A DNA stretch of 64,000 nucleotides from Lutibacter maritimus (GTDB taxonomy: Bacteria > Bacteroidota > Bacteroidia > Flavobacteriales > Flavobacteriaceae): contig NZ_FOZP01000005.1 in NCBI RefSeq assembly GCF_900116115.1, positions 1 to 64,000 of the forward strand. The letters are read 5' to 3'. The position numbers and the translations under genes were made by a program. The notes beneath the pieces were generated by a model, which saw only the letters and a program-made list of their open reading frames with translations, searched no databases and was not told the DNA's origin. This document shows, in pieces, positions 24,993-27,031 of this stretch; position 1 is the stretch's first letter; the number at the start of each line of letters is the position of its first letter.

Positions 24993-26117
24993 ATGAATTA
25001 TTTAAATAAAATTATAACCATTGTATTGGTTACTTGCATAACAAGTATAACTGTTAAAGCACAAGTTTTAGATAAATCTTGGGATAAAATTACAGACTTG
25101 GATGAAGGAGCTTGGTTTGGAACTCAAGAGGCTAAAGATATTGCTGAAAATGTATTGTTATATCAAAGAGATATTGGCGGATGGCCAAAAAATATTCAAA
25201 TGCAAAACCCTTTGACTAAAGAACAAATAAAAGAGCTAAAACTTTTAAAAAGTGATGATCATAATGTTACAACAGATAATGGTGCAACGTATAATGAGAT
25301 GGTTTTTCTTTCTAAAATGTTCAGACAAGTGCCAGATGAACGCTATAAAACTGCGTTTTTAAAAGGCTTAAATTATATTTTAGAAGCACAATATGAAAGT
25401 GGAGGTTGGCCTCAATTTTATCCTTTAAAAAAAGGATATTATACACATATAACATTTAATGATGATTCTATGGTAAACATTTTAAATGTGCTGAAAGAAA
25501 TTAAAGATAAAACTAATTTCTTTTCAATTCAGCCATCTGAAGATGTTATAGAAAAAGTAAAAGTAGCATTTAATAAGGGAATTGATTGTATAATAAAAAC
25601 ACAATACAAACAAAATGGTGTTTTAACAAGTTGGTGTGCGCAACACGATGAAAAAACATTTTTACCGGCGAAAGCTAGAGCTTATGAATTACCTTCATTA
25701 AGTGGTAAAGAATCTGCAAAAATTGTATTGTTATTAATGGAAATAGAAAATCCATCAAATGAAATTATTACAGCAGTTAACAGCGCTGTGGCTTGGTTTG
25801 AAAAAGTTAAAATTACAGGACTTAGAGAGGATAGAACGTATAATGATAAAGGAAAAGTTATTGATAAAAAAATGGTTGAAGATGAAAATGCACCTGCCAT
25901 TTGGGCTCGTTTTATGGAGTTAGAGGACAATACTCCATTTTTTTGTGATAGAGATGGAGTAAAAAAACGAACCTTGGCCGAAATTGGTTCAGAAAGAAGA
26001 AATGGTTACGCTTGGTATACAGATCAACCAAAGGAAGTACTTAAAAAGTATCCAAAATGGATTAAAAAAAATAAAATTCTTTCAACTGTACAAACAGTAG
26101 TAAAAAAAAAACAATAA
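24993..26117 (+). CDS. PL10 pectate lyase (upstream half of a frame-split PL10-CE8 gene)
   Basis: Cleaves polygalacturonate by beta-elimination. A signal peptide ends near TVKAQ, and the catalytic domain runs to about residue 350. PL10 features are the IGGWPKN and GGWPQFYPL segments, the LTSWCAQHDEKTF stretch, and KARAYELPSLSG near residue 228, whose Arg matches the catalytic base region of the family. The frame ends in VVKKKQ-stop right after a run of ten A residues. With one extra A it would continue without a stop into the pectinesterase frame, so the last two residues and the stop may not reflect the functional protein. Confidence 0.9.
   Translation: MNYLNKIITIVLVTCITSITVKAQVLDKSWDKITDLDEGAWFGTQEAKDIAENVLLYQRDIGGWPKNIQMQNPLTKEQIKELKLLKSDDHNVTTDNGATYNEMVFLSKMFRQVPDERYKTAFLKGLNYILEAQYESGGWPQFYPLKKGYYTHITFNDDSMVNILNVLKEIKDKTNFFSIQPSEDVIEKVKVAFNKGIDCIIKTQYKQNGVLTSWCAQHDEKTFLPAKARAYELPSLSGKESAKIVLLLMEIENPSNEIITAVNSAVAWFEKVKITGLREDRTYNDKGKVIDKKMVEDENAPAIWARFMELEDNTPFFCDRDGVKKRTLAEIGSERRNGYAWYTDQPKEVLKKYPKWIKKNKILSTVQTVVKKKQ
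26102..26111 (+). other. A10 homopolymer at the PL10/CE8 frame junction (slippage or frameshift site)
   Basis: Ten consecutive A residues mark the exact point where the PL10 frame must move back by one base to enter the CE8 frame. A transcript or genome with eleven A residues reads K-K-K-T-I-N-E-Y-N and continues to the CE8 stop at 27031. RNA polymerase is known to slip on A runs of nine or more. A sequencing or recent replication error in the homopolymer would look the same. Confidence 0.75.
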
Positions 26118-27031
26118 ACGAATATAATGTTGTTGTATCAAAAGATGGAAATGGCGATTATAAAACAATTCAAGAGGCTATAAATGCTTCAAAAGCTTTT
26201 CCTTACAAAAGAGTTATTATAAATATTAAAAATGGTATTTATAATGAAAAAGTTCACATATATTCTTGGAATACAAAAGTTTCATTAATTGGTGAAAGTA
26301 AAGAAAATACAATTATTTCATTTGATGATTATTTCAAGAAAATTAATTTTGGTAGAAATAGTACTTTTCATACATCAACGGTTTTGGTTGAAGGCAATGA
26401 TTTTATAGCGAAAAATTTAACAATTGAAAATTCGGCTGGTGAAGTTGGACAAGCTGTAGCTTTAACTGTAAATGCTAATAGAGCTTTATTTGAAAATTGT
26501 TCATTTTTAGGTTTTCAAGACACGCTTTATTTAACTGGTGAAGGGTTTAAACAATATTTTAAGAACTGTTATATTGAAGGAAGTACCGATTTTATTTTTG
26601 GAGAAGCAACTGTTTTATTTGAAAATTGTAAAATACACAGTAAAGCCAATTCGTATATAACTGCAGCTTCAACTCCAAATAATATTGAATTTGGTTTTGT
26701 GTTTAAAAATTGTGAATTAACTGCAAATAAAGATGTTACACAAGTTTATTTGGGACGACCTTGGCGAAAATATGCTAAAACTGTATTTATTAATTGTGAA
26801 ATGGGCAAACATATAAAACCTGAAGGCTGGCATAATTGGTCTAATGTTGAAGCTGAAAAAACAACATTTTATGCTGAATATTTGTCAACTGGTGAAGGAG
26901 CAAATTCTGAAAATAGAGTTGTATGGTCTTATCAATTAAAAAAATCAAAAGCTAAAAAGTATACACATAAAAATATACTAGGATCTCAATTTAACGATTT
27001 AAATAAAAACTGGTATTCAATCACAAACTAA
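26111..27031 (+). CDS. CE8 pectin methylesterase module, split by frameshift from PL10
   Basis: Would remove methyl groups from homogalacturonan, making it accessible to the lyases. The frame from 26111 encodes a complete CE8 beta-helix of about 306 residues: a SKDGNGDYKTIQEAI start, GQAVALTVN, FQDTLY (codons from 26513) and STDFIFGEA (Asp at 26588-26590) with the catalytic acids, then LGRPWRKYA with the Arg at 26756. No ATG occurs in this frame before the domain begins. The first usable start, a TTG at 26384, would remove about 90 residues. It also lacks a signal peptide. It therefore only makes sense as the C-terminal module of the PL10 protein. Confidence 0.8.
   Translation, partial: TINEYNVVVSKDGNGDYKTIQEAINASKAFPYKRVIINIKNGIYNEKVHIYSWNTKVSLIGESKENTIISFDDYFKKINFGRNSTFHTSTVLVEGNDFIAKNLTIENSAGEVGQAVALTVNANRALFENCSFLGFQDTLYLTGEGFKQYFKNCYIEGSTDFIFGEATVLFENCKIHSKANSYITAASTPNNIEFGFVFKNCELTANKDVTQVYLGRPWRKYAKTVFINCEMGKHIKPEGWHNWSNVEAEKTTFYAEYLSTGEGANSENRVVWSYQLKKSKAKKYTHKNILGSQFNDLNKNWYSITN

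Follow-up and report, generated by a model that had tools for sequence, protein, structure and literature searches.

A PL10 pectate lyase and a CE8 pectinesterase of Lutibacter maritimus lie in two reading frames that overlap at a run of ten A residues (A10), and a shift of one base reads both as a single two-domain protein. The same split arrangement recurs in other Flavobacteriaceae, where it is inherited in clades and where the CE8 frame stays intact. From comparison of these sequences it is very probable that the linker is a genuine conserved recoding site, by one mechanism or another, and the A10 run is probably a programmed slippage site, with RNA polymerase the most likely agent.

The PL10 and CE8 reading frames of Lutibacter maritimus

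The window, i.e., the whole 64-kb stretch of DNA that was analyzed, contains the following features at this locus:

24993 to 26117, + strand: PL10 pectate lyase open reading frame, 374 aa (PF09492, E 6e-110; TIGR02474)
26075 to 26117, + strand: 43-nt overlap shared by the PL10 frame and the -1 frame of CE8, containing the A10 run
26102 to 26111, + strand: slippage-prone A10 run, GT-A10-CAATAA
26111 to 27031, + strand: CE8 pectinesterase in the -1 frame (PF01095, E 2e-81), without a usable start codon

The PL10 N-terminus displays an apparent signal peptide, MNYLNKIITIVLVTCITSITVKAQ, as judged by eye, and the gene ends with the codons GTA AAA AAA AAA CAA TAA. The 43-nt overlap is the only place where a shift can join PL10 with CE8. 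It holds the sole A10 run of the window, both strands considered, whereas shuffled sequence is expected to have 20. The first possible initiation codon of the CE8 frame (ATG, GTG or TTG) is a TTG approximately 79 codons inside the domain. A preliminary description of the locus, accurate in its coordinates, had the PL10 frame stopping two codons after a ten-A run, the CE8 frame open from 26111 with no ATG start, one added A joining the two frames into about 680 residues, and the CE8 catalytic motifs intact. The sequence agrees on each point: the stop is where it was placed, the first ATG of CE8 is codon 218, deep within the domain, the joined reading has 679 residues and two domains, and all five motifs checked are present.

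The window CE8 is the only pectinesterase found in the L. maritimus genome. It is located in a pectin utilization region that also encodes a GH28, a SusC/SusD pair, a Pel9A-like protein, a GH88/105, a GH43, a GDSL esterase and a GH2.

Split and fused loci among relatives

Relatives were compared at one genome per species. The PL10-CE8 gene is present in 7 of 38 Lutibacter genomes, the window included. Four of these have in-frame fusions, three with A10 (G021, G013 and G029) and one with A9 followed by G (G022). The other three are split, i.e., CE8 is out of frame with PL10. The split junction of G020, GTA AAA AAA AAA CAA TAA ACG AAT, is that of the window, and in G033 the junction is A9 followed by C TAA. 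Sister pairs such as G013 and G033 differ by one A. Beyond Lutibacter, split loci are found in G323, a genome from a different genus, and in 16 Flavobacterium genomes, and thus there are 20 out-of-frame loci in Flavobacteriaceae, the window and 19 further genomes.

CE8 is in the -1 frame in all 20 split loci. The frame overlaps range from 13 to 61 nt, and an A9 or A10 run is inside every one of them. The position of the run in the linker varies, as it follows TGG, GAA or GTA; the clade of the TGG type has A9 in 6/6 genomes. Many in-frame fused relatives also retain an A9/A10 run at the linker, although about 60% of the fused loci read are without a run of nine or more A. A large Flavobacterium clade has lost the run (A5-A8) and carries a plain PL10-CE8 fusion; thus slippage is not essential everywhere. 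Across these relatives A9/A10 runs are repeatedly kept, which is opposite to the pattern that the preliminary description had set against slippage, AAG-interrupted linkers that never carry ten A.

One split locus is not trusted. G772 (locus L185) is counted among the 20, leaving 19 without it, and it is set aside because it has a second homopolymer frameshift, within PL10. The locus is at G772:C1:1860300-1862900 in a one-contig assembly and shows T7 where T8 is expected, a likely miscall, and frame calls in this genome need caution. The remaining split loci of full length show no frame break beyond the one at the linker.

Distribution of the split and fused states on the tree

A tree was made from 124 PL10+CE8 pairs, with each row labeled as split or fused. 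The state changes at least nine times, and every one of these changes is forced by well-supported branches. When labels are shuffled, 18.8 changes are needed in place of the nine real ones, and none of 500 shuffles is as low; removal of G772 still leaves nine. In two Flavobacterium clades all six rows are split, and the window gene pairs as sister with that of G020, also split. Thus the state follows the tree. Neither random sequencing errors nor fast reversible switching would give such a pattern. The presence of a long run changes at least 14 times on the same tree and is therefore not one frozen accident; some clades have also lost it.

Selection on the CE8 frame

Selection on CE8 was estimated as Nei-Gojobori dN/dS, at synonymous differences of about 50-60%. 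The ratios are 0.047 and 0.101 in two split Flavobacterium clades and 0.15-0.16 (maximum 0.159) in split Lutibacter. Those of fused controls, 0.035-0.131, are close to the split clades, and PL10 in the same genomes gives 0.04-0.12. By these estimates CE8 is under purifying selection in the split clades. The five catalytic motifs are all intact in 19 split loci, with one motif altered in G323, and no other CE8 is found in 14/20 split genomes, L. maritimus among them. Since CE8 is under purifying selection, keeps its motifs and is often the sole copy, a CE8 product must presumably have been made.

An internal start for CE8 was considered and rejected, as no ATG, GTG or TTG is found ahead of the CE8 domain in 17 of the 20 split loci. 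The earliest ATG is at about codon 65 or later in all 20.

The preliminary description had proposed the run as a candidate for programmed slippage and had named a recent mutation or a homopolymer error as the simpler alternative. The candidate gains support from the recurrent A9/A10 linkers, the 19 further split genomes (one unreliable) and the intact CE8, and the simpler alternative is disfavored by the inheritance of the split state in clades and by purifying selection on CE8.

Over-representation of the A run and position of the next stop

Neighboring genes (399 genes, 149,289 codons) were used as the background set. Here Lys-Lys-Lys is written AAA AAA AAA in only 1 of 81 cases, despite AAA making up 86.5% of lysine codons. 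In the PL10-CE8 linkers of fused genes it is written this way in 34 of 45 cases, and elsewhere in the same fused genes in 1 of 47. Fisher p values are about 5e-20 (linkers vs. neighbors) and about 2e-14 (vs. the rest of the gene), computed on related and hence non-independent sequences. Runs of nine or more A are approximately 170-fold denser in the linkers than in the remainder of the same genes. In the neighboring genes, A runs fall from 102 at A8 to 2 at A9, a drop at the length where selection against transcriptional slippage has been reported to set in across many bacteria (PMC1088944).

In fused loci with nine or more A (n=43), a gained A leads to a stop at a median of 4 nt beyond the run; where the run of a fused locus is shorter, the median is 19 nt. 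The stop is within 5 nt in 74%, against 56.5% in a synonymous-codon null (0/2000 nulls); this null ignores phylogeny, and the test is therefore supporting evidence only. The excess of near stops is only moderate and is partly due to the amino-acid sequence. With this layout, fused genes would thus give free PL10 on slippage, and split genes would give the fusion.

Proposed mechanism and alternatives

The loci display several traits of slippage genes: a homopolymer of about nine or more at the frame transition, a run that is retained though avoided elsewhere, and a downstream frame that is under protein-level selection and has no start of its own. RNA polymerase, in copying the A10 run, may insert one more A into some of the transcripts. 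The mRNA without this insertion would yield free PL10 ending in KKKQ, the default product, and A11 mRNA would yield the secreted 679-residue PL10-CE8 fusion. In-frame relatives would be the mirror image, with the fusion as default and a gained A stopping translation just past PL10. Both arrangements would leave a mixture of free lyase and lyase-esterase in the cell. We infer slippage, and the polymerase as its agent, from these sequences, together with the ratio of the products and any benefit that their mixture may bring.

Slightly favored is a wider reading in which the linker acts as a family-wide dial: Flavobacteriaceae would keep it at A9-A10 to ensure constant production of both forms, and single-base changes would decide whether free lyase or lyase-esterase is in the majority while leaving the gene functional in either frame.

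The same two products could also arise from a uniform A10 mRNA, by programmed -1 ribosomal frameshifting at A_AAA_AAA or A_AAA_AAG in the run. This is unlikely, but several observations agree with it. Such slippery heptamers are in register in the relatives' junctions inspected by reading and in the window, where A_AAA_AAA lies in the 0-frame register for a -1 shift. Also, the direction is -1 in 20/20 loci and through at least nine events, and the authors of GeneTack take a one-way frame direction as a sign of ribosomal frameshifting (PMC3711429). Frames in either direction among homologues, the pattern they use for slippage, are not what is found here; however, theirs is a rule of classification (PMC3711429), and the mechanism itself does not require both directions. 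Against a ribosomal shift, seven bases would be enough for it, yet 9-10 A are present at every split locus; no Shine-Dalgarno-like element is seen upstream of the run on direct reading of the window; and modeling of pseudoknot-free folds gives no stable downstream structure (mean z -0.41). The lack of unusual downstream structure is expected for polymerase slippage. Slippage by the polymerase is favored because the run is never shorter than nine in split loci and no stimulatory structure is seen among those folds, because bacterial RNA polymerases tend to make insertions at A9-A11, as reported for several genes (PMC6260861), and because tssM1/tssM3, mirrored in a similar way, provide a precedent shown by experiment (PMC4256274). 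In E. coli reporters with other poly-A cassettes, values of 40% with A9 and 63% with A11 have been reported (PMC3711429).

Three other explanations were considered. Loss of one A is the likeliest mutation at a long homopolymer, and sister pairs one A apart are what real one-base deletions would leave, with the frame simply broken and CE8 no longer made. This is very improbable, as split clades at about 50-60% synonymous difference still have an intact CE8 with purifying selection acting on it, and no second copy is found in 14/20 split genomes. An undercalled homopolymer would make the gene a plain fusion whose true run is one A longer. Every split locus is indeed short of one A, and G772 with its second frameshift shows that some assemblies carry such errors; but undercalling is hardly credible for a state that tracks the tree, for a TGG-type clade with the same A9 throughout, for a window junction common to two species, and for the other full-length split loci with no further break. 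Phase variation, in which reversible replication slippage would turn CE8 on and off between cells, draws on the proneness of long homopolymers and the repeated flips of state. It is just as doubtful, since the clades are uniform with a single off-frame and lengths fixed at 9-10, and rapid switching would scatter the states among close species. Phase variation and transcriptional slippage can coexist.

If polymerase slippage is the correct reading, free-living Bacteroidota would have a conserved, programmed slippage in enzymes that they secrete to degrade polysaccharides. The frame flips, at least nine, would be natural replicates, each changing the default product without loss of the ability to make both. 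Annotation would call such CE8 genes pseudogenes or miss them, and thus pectin methylesterase capacity may be under-counted. PL10-CE8 would also make it possible to test what a bacterium gains by having free lyase alongside lyase-esterase. Among the papers searched, none joins pectate lyase with transcriptional slippage, and the main text of the GeneTack paper (PMC3711429) has no pectin entry. Slippage at poly-A runs is already known elsewhere; PL10-CE8 is notable for the gene family, the breadth and the repeated frame flips.

Other A runs in the Lutibacter maritimus genome

Homopolymers of A or T reach ten or more at about 20 places in the L. maritimus genome, only some of which are within reading frames. 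One is in dnaX, where an A10 run at G000:C20:59952-59961 (L057) reads GGA GAA AAA AAA AAT AAC and a gained A leads to an immediate stop. In Lutibacter dnaX the run is exactly A10 in 29/29 genes read, and one gained A places a stop 0-3 nt beyond it; this by analogy suggests gamma/tau slippage of the Thermus type. The length and layout of this run match those of PL10-CE8.

An A10 run in the coding sense is found in four more genes of the same genome (L034, L049, L050 and L054), named by eye as a 165-codon frame, an alpha/beta-hydrolase-like gene, a ROK-like sugar kinase and an NRDE-like gene. Outside long frames, an A14 run (G000:C10:94314-94327) and an A13 run (97411-97423 of the same contig) lie about 3 kb apart with nearly identical flanks, in the layout AAATCTTTCTTCAGGTTAAATGTAT-A13/14-GACTTGGCAAA; the pair is perhaps a repeated regulatory element.

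Comparison with known systems

The plain in-frame PL10-CE8 fusions of Flavobacteriaceae have the same two domains in the same order as the window locus; they differ in that about 60% of those read lack A>=9. In Buchnera and Blochmannia, as cited in PMC4256274, frames are broken at poly-A runs, kept, and rescued by slippage, and in being broken at an A run yet kept they are like PL10-CE8. These are, however, AT-rich insect endosymbionts, whereas the hosts of PL10-CE8 are free-living and avoid coding A>=9, and the run is enriched at one linker.

A closer likeness to the mirror arrangement of PL10-CE8 is found in tssM1 of Citrobacter rodentium (A11) and tssM3 of Yersinia pseudotuberculosis. These also have a poly-A run with A insertion, the product of slippage is the longer one in C. 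rodentium or Y. pseudotuberculosis and the shorter one in its counterpart, and no RNA stimulators were found (PMC4256274). The slippage efficiency is 15-25% (PMC4256274). The tssM genes differ in that they belong to Type VI secretion and that slippage is experimentally shown in few genomes, whereas PL10-CE8 is known from sequence in many species with repeated flips.

Transcriptional slippage at A9 is established for dnaX in Thermus, and the same mechanism is proposed for A10 dnaX (PMC1088944, PMC3711429). The A9 dnaX of Thermus thermophilus and the two-ORF A10 dnaX share with PL10-CE8 an A9-A10 run with a near stop and the existence of both defaults. However, dnaX is a replication gene with tau and gamma products, and PL10-CE8 is a secreted two-enzyme protein.
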